64,000 nt of DNA, taken from the NCBI RefSeq assembly GCF_900113935.1, contig NZ_FORF01000014.1, positions 1 to 64,000 of the forward strand. Direction: 5' to 3'. A program made the position numbers and the translations under genes. Of this stretch, positions 9,638 through 55,063 are shown in pieces. Every line of letters begins with the position of its first letter. The first letter of the stretch is position 1. A model generated the notes under the pieces. That model was not told the origin of the DNA and made no database searches. It was given only the letters and a program-made list of their open reading frames with translations. Origin of the DNA: Aquamicrobium aerolatum DSM 21857 (GTDB taxonomy: Bacteria > Pseudomonadota > Alphaproteobacteria > Rhizobiales > Rhizobiaceae).

Positions 9638-10132
9638 GCTATTTCAATATCTTAGATGTTTGTCGCTCTTGCGTTTTTGGATGGCGTTCCAATGACGAGC
9701 ACTGCGTGTTTCTGCGGGACAAGGCTATTCGACGAATTTTGCTGCGAAATACTCGCTCCCGCCGCGAAAACGGCTCATGGGTGCTTGCCAAGACACAGGC
9801 CCAATTTGGGCTGACGCAAGCCGGGGCCATAAGACCGCATTCCGGGCTTCAGCGCGGATATGGCTGTGCAAAGTGTGCTCCGCTGCCTGAATAATAAGAG
9901 TTCCTAGAGCGGGTCGCGATCTTTCGGGTCCGCTTCATGCGCGTCAAGTTTCTACATTGACGTATCTCTTTATCCTGAAGCCGGTGCCCACTTTCGGCAG
10001 ATGTGCGCGAAGCATCAAAAGATAAAACAAAGAATTCGCAAAGATCAATGAGGAATAAGATGTAGACTCCCAATCAGTCTGGAAGATATGCTGGAGGGCA
10101 GTTGCAATATTCATTGATTGGCAGGTGGGGCA
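9638..10132. other. 495-nt gene-free flank of the att site, with a rhizobial repeat
   Basis: I find no convincing gene. The first 250 nt contain only short frames without ribosome sites and may be remnant coding DNA at the integration junction. From about 9905 to 10010 lies a copy of a dispersed rhizobial intergenic element, recognisable by TCCTGAAGCCGGTGCCCACT and the flanking GACGTATCTCTTTA and GCAGATGTGCG blocks. The remaining 120 nt form the leader of the next gene. Confidence 0.55.
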
Positions 10133-51216: not shown

Positions 51217-51765
51217 TCACGCTGCGTTTGAACCCATCACCTGCGCAGAAATCGCGTCTGGACCGTAGTCGCCTTCGCCGGAAACCTTTAGGATTTCCTG
51301 CAAACGGCTTCGGGCCCGGCTGACCCGGCTTTTGATGGTGCCCACGGCACAGCCGCAGATTTCCGCAGCTTCCTCGTAGGAAAATCCAGACGCGCCGATC
51401 AGGATGATGGCTTCGCGCTGATCTTCCGGCAATGTTTCGAGGGCCGCCTTGAAATCGTTCAGGTCCATGGAGCCGACCTGGCTCGGATGAACGGCGAGGC
51501 GTGCGGTCATGAGACCGTCGCTGTCCTGAACTTCGCGGCCCCGCTTGCGCATCTGCGAATAGAATTCGTTGCGAAGGATGGTAAACACCCAGGCCTTCAG
51601 GTTGGTGCCCGCCTGAAAGGAAGCCTGTTTGTCCCAGGCCTTCACCAGCGTCTCCTGAACGAGATCGTCTGCCTTGTCAGCGTTCTGGGCCAGAGACATC
51701 GCGAATGCGCGCAGGCTCGGGATGGCTCCAAGTAACTCAACCTTGAACGTTGGACCGCCCGCCAT
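51217..51765 (-). CDS. ecfG: EcfG-family general stress sigma factor
   Basis: A 182-residue ECF sigma factor from the ATG at 51765, with GGGGGAT just upstream. Region 2 includes LRAFAMSLAQNADKADDLVQ and the -10-reading helix (AWVFTILRNEFYSQMRKRGR). Region 4 contains LPEDQREAIILIGASGFSYE and CGCAVGTIKSRVSRARSRL. It starts 2 nt after the nepR stop. It directs transcription of the GGAAC-N16-CGTT promoters listed here and is held inactive by NepR until PhyR is phosphorylated. Confidence 0.95.
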   Translation of the reverse strand: MAGGPTFKVELLGAIPSLRAFAMSLAQNADKADDLVQETLVKAWDKQASFQAGTNLKAWVFTILRNEFYSQMRKRGREVQDSDGLMTARLAVHPSQVGSMDLNDFKAALETLPEDQREAIILIGASGFSYEEAAEICGCAVGTIKSRVSRARSRLQEILKVSGEGDYGPDAISAQVMGSNAA

Positions 51766-51766
51766 A

Positions 51767-51979
51767 TTATCCCCCTTTGCCCGCTGTACTGTCGATAGTT
51801 GTTTCCTGCTCCTCAAGCTGCTTTAGGAGCTCAGCAAACCTGTCGGGAACCTCTTCGGAAGTCAGGTCGTCGTAGTACTGCTTCAGCTTCCTCCCAATCT
51901 CTGAATGTACTCCTAAAGGGTCGGTTTTATTGACCGCCTTATTTGGGCTGATCTCCGCAGCCATTTTCATTGATTTCAT
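51767..51979 (-). CDS. nepR: Anti-sigma factor NepR
   Basis: About 70 residues; the exact start among ATGs at 51979, 51970 and 51964 is uncertain. The conserved NepR core is present: LGVHSEIGRKLKQYYDDLTS and VPDRFAELLKQLEEQ, the two helices that clamp EcfG. Phosphorylated PhyR binds NepR instead and frees the sigma factor. It is transcribed with ecfG from an EcfG-type promoter, giving autoregulation. Confidence 0.93.
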   Translation of the reverse strand: MKSMKMAAEISPNKAVNKTDPLGVHSEIGRKLKQYYDDLTSEEVPDRFAELLKQLEEQETTIDSTAGKGG

Positions 51980-52074
51980 GCCTATTCTCGCCCCCGACAA
52001 TTTTGGCTATGGAACTTAACGTCAGACACGCGCCGATATCCGCAGCCCCAAGCTGCATCGATGCCTTGACTTCC

Positions 52075-52133: not shown

Positions 52134-52191
52134 TGATTGCTCGAAAGCACCATTTGTTTTCGCGAAATCGTCATTGAGGGAGACGGAACTT

Positions 52192-52986
52192 ATGAGTTTA
52201 TCTGCGCGAATTGCGCCACACCTGCCATTTCTCAGACGCTTCGCTCGCGCCGCCACCGGTTCCCAGAACAGCGGCGACGCGCTTGTGGCGGCAACGCTTG
52301 AAGCTGTTATTGCCGATGTCAGCGTGTTCCCGGCGCTGTCCAGCGATCGAATTGCGCTCTACCGAGTGTTCACGAAGCTGTTTACGTCGGTCAACATCCG
52401 CGTCCCGCAGGATGAAACCGCGCAAGGTTGGGAGAGCCGGGCGGCGGCCAATCTCTCTGCGATTGCTCCGCTGCCGCGCCAGGCATTTCTGCTTGTCGCT
52501 GTCGAAGGATTTTCCGAGGCTGAGGCCGCGGAAGTGCTCGATCTGTCGGAAGAGCGTTTTGCCGAGCTTCTGAAAGAGGCCAGCGAAGAAATTTCGCGCC
52601 AGGTGGCGACCGATGTCCTGATCATCGAAGACGAGCCGCTCATCGCGATGGATATCGAGCAGATGGTCGAAAGCCTCGGGCATCGGGTGGTTGGCACTGC
52701 ACGCACGCATAAGGAAGCAGTTGCGCTGTTCGGAAAGGCGCGACCCAAAATGGTGCTTGCGGATATTCAGCTGGCTGACGGCTCATCAGGTATTGATGCC
52801 GTCAACGAGATTCTGACGGGCGCGACCGTGCCTGTGATCTTTATCACGGCGTTTCCCGAGCGGTTGCTGACCGGGGAGCGACCGGAGCCTGCTTTCCTTG
52901 TGACGAAACCGTTCAACCCTGACATGGTCAAGGCGCTGATCAGCCAGGCGCTGTTCTTTGATCGTCAGGCGCGCGCAGCGGCATAA
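52192..52986 (+). CDS. phyR: General stress response regulator PhyR
   Basis: A 264-residue protein from the ATG at 52192. The N-terminal sigma-like domain (MSLSARIAPHLPFLRRFARA to EEISRQV) mimics EcfG, lacking DNA-binding capacity. The C-terminal receiver begins TDVLIIEDEPLIAMDIEQMV and has its phospho-accepting Asp in VLADIQLADG and Lys in VTKPFNPD. When phosphorylated it sequesters NepR. It is divergent from nepR-ecfG, with a terminator after its stop. Confidence 0.96.
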   Translation: MSLSARIAPHLPFLRRFARAATGSQNSGDALVAATLEAVIADVSVFPALSSDRIALYRVFTKLFTSVNIRVPQDETAQGWESRAAANLSAIAPLPRQAFLLVAVEGFSEAEAAEVLDLSEERFAELLKEASEEISRQVATDVLIIEDEPLIAMDIEQMVESLGHRVVGTARTHKEAVALFGKARPKMVLADIQLADGSSGIDAVNEILTGATVPVIFITAFPERLLTGERPEPAFLVTKPFNPDMVKALISQALFFDRQARAAA

Positions 52987-53097: not shown

Positions 53098-53122
53098 GGA
53101 ACCAATCCGCTTTCCTCGCGTT
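53098..53122 (+). promoter_or_regulatory. EcfG-type promoter of the DUF1328 gene
   Basis: GGAAC at 53098-53102, 16 nt, CGTT at 53119-53122: exact consensus, 32 nt before the start codon at 53154. Confidence 0.8.
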
Positions 53123-53321: not shown

Positions 53322-53449
53322 GCCGTCCAGCCCTTCGAGCCGCATCGCAAGATGCCCTCGAAAAGTGGAGTTCGAAGTTCCCTCAACTCCTGGCTCCGCC
53401 GCGCGCCGGGTAATGCTTCAAAGATGGCATTGCCCGGCGTTGTGGTGTT

Positions 53450-53474
53450 GGAACCATTTCACACTTCACGCATT
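53450..53474 (+). promoter_or_regulatory. EcfG-type promoter of the HisKA_2 kinase gene
   Basis: GGAAC at 53450-53454, 16 nt, CATT at 53471-53474: one mismatch. It decides in favour of the kinase start at 53526, since the longer frame from 53352 would begin upstream of it. Confidence 0.65.
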
Positions 53475-53525
53475 CTTTGTTTCATCGTACCAGTAACGAA
53501 GGGTACGGGCGGGAAACTGAAGCCT

Positions 53526-54548
53526 ATGGGAGTGGGAATTATCGACAGCACGCGGCCAGGCGATGCGAGGTCCCCTCACGCAGATATTGCGCAAGGGAGG
53601 GGGCTGCTGCGTGCTCTGAGGAACACCGGCATAACGGTTTTCTACCAGACGCCGGATCTCAAGGTCGTATGGGGACAGAACATCCCGGAAAACTGGCTCG
53701 ATGGGCGGATCGAGGGCAAGGTTGATCGTGACTTTCTGCCCGCGTCCGTCGCTTCGTGGATTTCGGACAGAAAGCGCGCGGTGCTTGAGACCGGGATTTC
53801 CGATTCAGTGGAATTTCGCGACGGCGAAGATCAGAGCCGTTGGTATGACATGTGGATTGATGCAGATTTTTCCGACGAGGGCGTTCTTCAAGGGGTGATC
53901 ACAACCGTCGTGGAGATCACCGAGCGGAAGCACCGTGAGCAGACATTGCGTACGCTTCTGCGTGAAGTCAGCCATCGCTCGAAAAATCTGTTGGCGATCA
54001 TCCAGAGCATTGCCACGCAGACAGGTCGCTACTCGACCACCATTGAGGGGTTTCTTGATCGGTTCAGAGGCCGCTTGCACTCGTTGTCCTTTTCACAGGA
54101 CCTGGTGACATCGTCGGACTGGCGTGGCGCTACCCTCAGCGAACTTGTCGGGACGCAGGTGATGCGTTTTCGTGGCGATGAGGATCATAGCGTCAGGTTC
54201 GAAGGGGCCGACGTCTATCTCAATCCTAATGCCGCACTCCATATCGGACTTGCTCTTCATGAGCTGGTCGTCAATTCGATGAGCCACGGCGCTTTGGCGC
54301 GTCACGATGGAAGGGTTCATCTTCACAGCGAACTGGCCAAGGACGGAGACGTGCTCATTCTCCTGTGGAGCGAGCGGACGGTTGGATTGCTGTCGCCGAT
54401 CAAGCGCTTTGGCAGCGTGGCATTGGAGCGGGTCGTGCCCCTGTCGCTGGATGGCACGGCCACTGTCGAATATGTCGATGGGCAGCTTGACTACCGGCTG
54501 GAAATTCCGAGTGCCAATTTCGAGATCGAACAACTCTCCCATGGCTGA
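53526..54548 (+). CDS. HisKA_2/HWE-type sensor histidine kinase with PAS domain
   Basis: A 340-residue soluble kinase from the ATG at 53526. A PAS domain occupies about 25-135 (RNTGITVFYQTPDLKVVWGQ to VITTVVEITERKHRE). The HisKA_2 dimerisation box is LREVSHRSKNLLAIIQSIAT with His150, and the ATPase N box is HELVVNSMSHGAL. Kinases of this subfamily phosphorylate PhyR in other alphaproteobacteria, and this one is encoded in the same locus under its own EcfG-type promoter. It is therefore a likely PhyK-type or modulating kinase. The G2 region is short and poorly conserved. Confidence 0.88.
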   Translation: MGVGIIDSTRPGDARSPHADIAQGRGLLRALRNTGITVFYQTPDLKVVWGQNIPENWLDGRIEGKVDRDFLPASVASWISDRKRAVLETGISDSVEFRDGEDQSRWYDMWIDADFSDEGVLQGVITTVVEITERKHREQTLRTLLREVSHRSKNLLAIIQSIATQTGRYSTTIEGFLDRFRGRLHSLSFSQDLVTSSDWRGATLSELVGTQVMRFRGDEDHSVRFEGADVYLNPNAALHIGLALHELVVNSMSHGALARHDGRVHLHSELAKDGDVLILLWSERTVGLLSPIKRFGSVALERVVPLSLDGTATVEYVDGQLDYRLEIPSANFEIEQLSHG

Positions 54549-54600
54549 TGCATGTTTCCCGAAAGTTGGAGCCGGTTTCGGGACAAAGGCATGCGAGCCA
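54546..54600. repeat. Rhizobial intergenic repeat
   Basis: GCATGTTTCCCGAAAGTTGG, then AGCCGGTTTCGGGACAAAGG and CATGCGAGCC, matches the dispersed family also seen at 9905-10010 and 49990-50042. It begins at the kinase stop codon. Confidence 0.6.
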
Positions 54601-54649
54601 AAGGCTTGCAGCGGGCGGCCATGTGAGATCGATTGAAGCCAGTGCCAAT

Positions 54650-54764
54650 TAAAAAGGCTGGTCTTGCGACCAGCCTTCTCACGGAAGATCACGCCCCCGT
54701 TGTGCCGCACTGTCCACCATTTGGGGGGGGGGGCGATTGGGCTGGTGTCCAGCGCGGCATGGAC
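54650..54764 (-). ncRNA. EcfG-dependent sRNA with an 11-C loop (GsrN-like)
   Basis: An orphan transcript on the minus strand starts about 6-8 nt after the perfect EcfG promoter at 54769-54793. It ends at an intrinsic terminator: AAGGCTGGTC (54677-54668), GCAA tetraloop, GACCAGCCTT (54663-54654), then TTTAATT. Near the 5' end GCCGCGCTGGACACC (54758-54744) pairs with GGTGGACAGTGCGGC (54718-54704), 13 of 15 positions paired. The 25-nt apical loop contains eleven cytosines (54733-54723). A GGGGGC segment in the linker could pair with the loop. No coding frame with a ribosome site is inside. Promoter class, locus, size and C-rich 5' loop all match Caulobacter GsrN. Confidence 0.8.
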
Positions 54765-54768
54765 TAAC

Positions 54769-54793
54769 AACGAAGTCTGGATAAAATAGTTCC
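54769..54793 (-). promoter_or_regulatory. EcfG-type promoter of the C-loop sRNA
   Basis: On the minus strand GGAAC (54793-54789), 16 nt, CGTT (54772-54769): exact consensus, with no protein gene downstream on that strand. Confidence 0.8.
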
Positions 54794-54825: not shown

Positions 54826-54850
54826 GGAACATGCTTCAAATCAGTACGTT
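54826..54850 (+). promoter_or_regulatory. EcfG-type promoter of the 57-aa gene
   Basis: GGAAC at 54826-54830, 16 nt, CGTT at 54847-54850: exact consensus, 40 nt before the start codon at 54890. Confidence 0.8.
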
Positions 54851-54889: not shown

Positions 54890-55063
54890 ATGATTTCGCA
54901 AATGAACGTGGTGCAAAATGCGGCGCGTCTGGCGATGGATCATCGCGCCGCGCGGCCCCGGCGCAATCCTGGCAGTGATGCCCCGTCGCGCTTTCTCAAG
55001 ATGGCTTTGGGCGTCGCCAGCGTCGCAGCCCTGCTGGGCGCTGTCTATCTGATCATGGCGTGA
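54890..55063 (+). CDS. 57-aa single-span membrane protein of the stress regulon
   Basis: GGGAGGTGAAG directly precedes the ATG. The product has a basic soluble N-terminus (about 33 residues, HRAARPRRNPG) and one C-terminal membrane helix (MALGVASVAALLGAVYLIMA). No family is recognised. The exact EcfG promoter 40 nt upstream supports it as a real gene despite its size. Confidence 0.75.
   Translation: MISQMNVVQNAARLAMDHRAARPRRNPGSDAPSRFLKMALGVASVAALLGAVYLIMA

Follow-up and report, generated by a model that had tools for sequence, protein, structure and literature searches.

The 64-kb stretch of DNA analysed here (the window) derives from a relative of Mesorhizobium and carries a predicted small RNA (sRNA) gene that adjoins its general stress genes. 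We consider it likely (probability roughly 0.8) that the RNA is a general-stress-locus sRNA of the Rhizobiaceae, of the ReC64 kind and similar to GsrN, which is driven by EcfG and acts by pairing of its loop with mRNAs. The window RNA belongs to a known but thinly studied kind, and the gene is conserved and very probably real.

The general stress locus in the window consists of ecfG and nepR on the minus strand, and of phyR and an HWE histidine kinase gene on the plus strand. The ECF sigma factor gene ecfG (51217-51765, with 51765 as the putative start) shows the Pfam domains Sigma70_r2 and Sigma70_r4_2 on 51217-51756, and is preceded by the anti-sigma factor gene nepR (51770-52000; Pfam NepR, 1.1e-16). 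The phyR gene (52180-52986; PhyR_sigma2, PhyR_sigma-like and Response_reg) is followed by the kinase gene (53352-54548; HWE_HK, 7.8e-23), which takes the position of tcrY in R. etli and whose true start probably lies further in than 53352. The sRNA is found behind phyR and the kinase gene, on the opposite strand, which is the place that characterizes the ReC64 kind.

Two further EcfG promoters were observed around these genes on the plus strand. The one at 53098-53122, between phyR and the kinase gene, precedes an open reading frame (ORF) for a small membrane protein, and the same layout was seen in several relatives. The other (54826-54850) is divergent to the sRNA promoter, at 32 bp from its -35 box, and such a divergent box within 80 bp was found in five of the seven congeners. 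It precedes a small ORF (54890-55063) of 57 aa with a hydrophobic C-terminus, which has no Pfam match but does have tblastn matches at the same place in two relatives (L094 and L099).

The minus strand carries a perfect EcfG-type promoter (GGAAC-N16-CGTT) at 54793-54769, as a sequence-only reading of this DNA had proposed, and the same element is present in all seven congeners. That reading was also right in stating that no protein gene lies behind it: the 225-aa ORF found there is antisense to the kinase gene, and its start lies upstream of that predicted for the RNA. In total the window contains eight GGAAC-N16/17-CGTT sites, compared with 0.85 expected on the basis of shuffles. The predicted sRNA runs from 54762 to 54651 on the minus strand, with both ends deduced, the start (54763-54761) from a distance of 6-8 nt past CGTT and the end from the T tract. 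On these deduced ends its length is about 112 nt, slightly below the figure of about 115 nt put forward before. The minus strand from 54764 to 54645 folds at -58.7 kcal/mol (z -5.33; none of 200 shuffles as good), and RNAs of similar build are found at the same place in relatives.

In the predicted fold, hairpin 1 (54703-54759) has a stem of 10 + 5 = 15 pairs around a 2x2 internal loop, and an apical loop of 23 nt (54742-54720). The first reading of this stem-loop had the 15 positions and the eleven cytosines right, but gave the loop 25 nt instead of 23. The eleven C (54723-54733) constitute the sole C or G run of eight or more in the window, and the sequence at 54737-54729 of the minus strand, AUCGCCCCC, recurs in several relatives. 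The fold of the first 72 nt has a z-score of -4.04, and the window RNA is predicted to share the exposed C-rich 5' loop of GsrN. What had been described as a linker is not plain: it is predicted to form a third hairpin of 7 bp (hairpin 2, 54681-54700), in which GGGGGCG at 54698-54692 is complementary to the C loop. The intrinsic terminator (54651-54680) has the 10-bp core stem capped by GCAA that was noted earlier, and reaches 13 bp in the minimum-energy fold, with three extra pairs that use the T tract. A simple terminator scan of the window did not report it, probably owing to the way in which the scan treats the T run as paired.

BLASTN against 60 relatives and eight genomes of the genus returned only short matches beyond the window itself (best outside match E 0.004), and thus no convincing relative even within the genus. 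One of the matches (congener G007, E 0.07) corresponds to the terminator and lies at the syntenic place. Since BLASTN gave no convincing match, the RNA was searched for by place (synteny), and the case for common descent therefore rests on place, promoter and build. The kinase is present in all seven congeners searched. In each of them the opposite strand behind the kinase gene carries GGAAC-N16-CGTT and, after it, a hairpin whose loop is C-rich. Most also show a clear terminator; L038 and L098 are atypical. The possible refutation that close relatives would lack these elements did not materialize, as promoter, place and C-loop hairpin are kept in 7/7 congeners. The GsrN-like build suggested before, with an EcfG promoter, a general stress locus and a (predicted) exposed C-rich 5' loop, is thus kept throughout the congeners and in part of the family.

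A loose promoter with a C5 run was accepted in 14 of the best 80 named kinase loci (455 had been found), and eight of these 14 have CGTT. The 14 loci are from Mesorhizobium sediminum, an Aquamicrobium MAG, M. microcysteis, Aminobacter sp. J41, Aquamicrobium zhengzhouense, Aquamicrobium sp. LC103, a Hyphomicrobiales MAG, three Aliihoeflea, two Rhizobiaceae MAGs, Mesorhizobium sp. YIM 152430 and M. albiziae. No accepted site was found in the other 66 of these best 80 loci, mostly labelled Mesorhizobium; one plus-strand match in L112 and one match in L115 were set aside. The loci L104-L173, labelled Mesorhizobium, are mostly without such an sRNA behind the kinase gene. The two that were checked (L104 and L131) keep ecfG, nepR and phyR, and have a short ORF behind the kinase gene that by eye resembles the 57-aa ORF of the window.

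At the level of the family, phyR was identified (E <= 1e-70) in 111 of 135 genomes, representing 91 of 109 genera. The survey set comprised 91 phyR loci from 90 Rhizobiaceae genera, i.e. the window, L096 (same genus, which is therefore counted twice), L099 and 88 further stretches; the genus of G012, with a partial phyR match, was left out. The expected place was defined as the 3 kb behind phyR, on the minus strand. A loose promoter, a C5 run and a terminator were found together in 21 loci, 19 of them at the expected place (18 genera) and two elsewhere; with the strict promoter this was 16 loci, 14 at the expected place. The reversed-pattern control gave 14 sites in the survey loci, none with C5. 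When the C filter was omitted, promoter and terminator coincided in 29 sites at the place (27 loci) and in 51 elsewhere. A C5 run was present in 19 of the former versus two of the latter (Fisher p 2.6e-9), which implies an association between place and C-run.

The C5-plus-terminator test at the expected place failed for 72 of the 91 survey loci; there the RNA is either missing or moved, or the criteria miss it. With 19 of 91 loci (18 genera) positive, it appears that a minority of genera retain the RNA, with its place and build preserved and its stem sequences diverging. The survey understates its occurrence, because for two genera (g8 and g70) the genome that entered the survey is negative and another genome has the RNA (L088 and L090). 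In a pattern search of 297 family genomes 20 matched, of which on inspection 14 look real and six look like chance; the reversed control yielded 12 sites. In 25 RNAs the predicted fold energy of the first 72 nt was below the shuffle mean in every case (z -0.31 to -5.63, mean about -2.5), although related rows in this comparison are not independent. Seven of the 25 first hairpins have a z weaker than -1.3, and the longest C-run is 67-100% unpaired in the predicted folds. The sequence elements of the window RNA, its predicted fold, and the fact that relatives keep its promoter, place and architecture are directly supported by these data.

The RNAs of the family could be divided into structural types. 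That of the window combines a single long stem with a large loop that is commonly built around AAUCGCCCCC. The second type, found in Rhizobium-like genera and in S. meliloti (L072), consists of an outer stem, an inner hairpin resembling CAUCGCCCCCAAUG, a hairpin with CAACUCAC-CCCCC-GUGAGUUG and the terminator. For comparisons across types we used 37 RNAs: 23 from the survey, picked by eye from the 29 sites (27 loci) with L211, L212, L242 and L271 dropped as unlike, and 14 added. A C-rich first loop is present in 36/37, which is not a free count as the rows were partly chosen for C-runs. A second C-rich loop, near the region of hairpin 2 of the window RNA, was found in 27 of the 37. In the Rhizobium/Sinorhizobium-like type 99.1% of the cells pair and five of the 29 pairs change on both sides, with eight cells showing such changes versus 1.7 in shuffles. 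The number of further pair types in this type (11 versus 10.1, matched by 149 of 500 shuffles) lends no support. RNAalifold on 16 diverse members found the terminator as the only structure, because stem 1 cannot be aligned by sequence.

When the Rhizobium/Sinorhizobium-like type was cast into a covariance model, this model matched, with strict filters, 12 of 347 genomes of the order and missed the window RNA. Three of the 12 matches are real (L174-L176, phyR-kinase loci); the other nine have no general stress response gene in their 1.5-kb flanks. A check against Rfam, advised together with BLASTN by the sequence-only reading, gave no family at the gathering score over the sRNA or in the loci of nine relatives. 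Two sub-threshold candidates were rejected: BASRCI27 (plus strand; 27.2 bits against a cut-off of 59.8), which covers a palindromic repeat and the terminator, and STnc390 (sRNA strand; 19.9 bits against a cut-off of 50), which covers the terminator end. The palindromic repeat, GCATG...CCGGTTTCGGG...CATGC, is located behind the kinase gene (54543-54688, plus strand, with its core at 54560-54582) and bears a weak likeness to the Brucella BASRCI27; a second, weaker copy occurs at 9974-9996, and L036 has a comparable stretch close to the locus. Elsewhere in the window Rfam identified the sRNA ar14 (RF02344; 37852-37965, minus strand, 77.5 bits), which is likewise alphaproteobacterial, but belongs to another family and to another place.

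The suggestion that the RNA could be undescribed was not upheld, in view of published descriptions. The positional equivalent in R. etli, ReC64, measures 88 nt and lies behind phyR-tcrY, with a promoter for EcfG (PMC3892343), and its start as determined by 5' RACE matches the EcfG consensus promoter (PMC2881028, PMC3892343). Its expression was abolished in ecfG1 mutants and its promoter was activated by EcfG in E. coli (PMC3892343), so that EcfG dependence is documented by Northern, 5' RACE and reporter fusions (PMC2881028, PMC3892343). The Northern showed an additional larger band (PMC2881028). Elsewhere ReC64 was described as up in salt shock, with SigA and RpoH promoters predicted for it (PMC4167512). 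By description, ReC64 and the window RNA share the place and the EcfG consensus promoter; as to length, 88 nt is reported for ReC64 and about 112 nt, with deduced ends, is predicted here. The Rhizobium-like relatives (not ReC64 itself) differ from the window RNA in their stem set and have two C-rich loops.

In Caulobacter, GsrN depends on sigma-T and uses a C-rich loop to pair with katG (Tien et al. 2018, PMC5869019). The window RNA would share with it the control by a general stress sigma factor, an exposed C-rich 5' loop and a second exposed region. BLASTN homologs of GsrN were reported in Caulobacteraceae only, and homologs at the same locus, near ecfG-nepR-phyR, had already been predicted in R. 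etli, S. meliloti, B. abortus and A. radiobacter, with a 5' loop that is cytosine-rich in the text and G-rich in the figure legend (PMC5869019). The S. meliloti RNA in our set (L072, minus strand, 7949-7815) is similarly found after phyR on the opposite strand, behind rsiB1, and has a C-rich loop (AUCGCCCCCAAU), a second C-rich run and a terminator. It differs in its -10 box, which is CATT instead of CGTT, and in the absence of a histidine kinase gene between rsiB1 and the RNA. Among the matches listed in a literature search on GsrN, ReC64 and EcfG with sRNA, in which subscription journals are thinly covered, no title or abstract opening points to a target of this Rhizobiaceae RNA or describes the RNA in the group of the window organism.

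We propose that under stress PhyR would free EcfG from NepR, a switch that is taken from published work on relatives, and that EcfG would then drive transcription of the sRNA from 54793-54769, as published for ReC64. Transcription would stop at the GCAA-capped terminator. The stems would act as a scaffold that keeps the C-rich loop single-stranded, and the loop (AUCGCCCCC...) would pair with G-rich stretches of mRNAs, in analogy to the pairing published for Caulobacter GsrN, and so alter their translation or stability. Transcription of the window copy, the loop as the active part and every target are what we infer here; the build, as modelled, fits a stress-induced, loop-pairing regulator.

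GsrN activates katG via leader pairing, and in this respect the window RNA differs, as katG was not found in the window's assembly. It is present in six of the seven congeners, in which the roughly 160 nt ahead of the assumed start revealed no common G-rich stretch. The loop of the window RNA is predicted to pair with GGGGGCGAUU at -19.9 kcal/mol. The complement of the loop core, GGGGGCGAT, occurs once in the window, namely on the other strand of the sRNA gene itself. A search for GGGGGCGAT-N0-30-ATG in eight genomes gave 153 places against 15 for the reversed pattern, an unfair control for coding sequence, and inspection of 30 of the 153 revealed nothing recurrent and convincing. In congener G005 (L298) GGGGGCGAT, the complement of the sRNA loop core, immediately precedes the ATG of an ORF, presumably argG. 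No conserved target was found, either in katG or in the ribosome site of ecfG.

A CCUCC motif in an exposed loop defines anti-Shine-Dalgarno sRNAs, and the sequence-only reading had named the GGAGG-type ribosome sites of the window as obvious targets. That claim finds no support in the window RNA, which contains no CCUCC and pairs with two GGAGG test strings at a mere -9.3 and -5.2 kcal/mol, as compared to the value for GGGGGCGAUU. In the family, CCTCC occurs somewhere in 21/37 of the RNAs, and two of four tested relatives' loops reach -17.2 kcal/mol with AAGGAGGGGU; that the loop blocks the ribosome sites of many messages we hold to be unlikely. Still less likely is a negative feedback on EcfG by pairing of the loop with the ecfG ribosome site AAAGGGGGAUAAUAUG. 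The window's ecfG leader does have a G5 run (51775-51771, minus strand) right before the start, and in several relatives hairpin 2 contains GAUCCCCC, the complement of GGGGGAU. However, G5 near the ecfG start was found in two of 35 loci with the RNA (the window and L193) and in four of 57 without it, and such feedback was rejected as a general rule, G5 being neither conserved nor associated with the RNA; for the window, AAAGGGGGAUAAUAUG as a partner is suggestive. That there is no sRNA at all, and that the hairpin is just a convergent terminator of the kinase gene, behind which it does lie, is highly improbable: the T tract is on the minus strand alone, and promoter, C-run and terminator recur jointly at the same place in relatives.

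The G-rich hairpin 2 raises the question whether the RNA could mask itself. The window RNA alone among the 37 family RNAs has a G5 run (0 of the other 36), in a group where 27 of 37 carry a second C-rich loop, which may perhaps reflect a flip of the hairpin. A duplex of loop and linker is predicted at -17.3 kcal/mol versus -6.9 for the linker's own hairpin, and only 13 of 2000 shuffled linkers reach this value. In such a variant, hairpin 2 would pair with the C loop of its own or of another copy, leaving the RNA inactive or dimeric until opened by a G-rich target or a chaperone, and the sRNA would carry its own antidote. We regard this as rather unlikely, since it concerns one genome only and the 4 nt that join stem 1 to the G run are probably too few for a 15-bp stem in a simple pseudoknot, so that partial opening of the stem or pairing of two molecules would be needed. 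Low odds are likewise given to the more specific form in which the G5 linker would cover the C11 seed within or between molecules, as an autoinhibited or dimeric stress sRNA that only strong G-rich targets or a chaperone would open. The G run may serve to mask the RNA, or it may have arisen by accident in a single lineage. Finally, the RNA might be read as a leaderless mini-gene with a start codon at its 5' end and the C-run as proline codons. An ATG or GTG is found 6-14 nt after CGTT in 22 of 41 RNAs against 12.6 expected (as many in 1 of 500 shuffles), with all 22 frames open into the C-run at a baseline openness of 78%; the 41 rows are related and these numbers therefore overstate the case. 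The other 19 RNAs have no such start, close relatives lose it (L094 has one, L095 not) and the frame shifts inside the loop between L107 and L108, which makes a peptide very improbable.

A stress-induced regulator that pairs through its C-rich loop is our preferred reading. The RNA is not linked by BLASTN even within the genus, yet its promoter, place, architecture and C-rich loops allowed it to be found in at least 18 of the 90 Rhizobiaceae genera sampled. This makes the GsrN/ReC64 group a good case of sRNAs in which the seed is kept whereas the scaffold turns over, and synteny provides a recipe for locating them. It also makes testable what role a C-rich stress sRNA has in a genome in which katG was not found.
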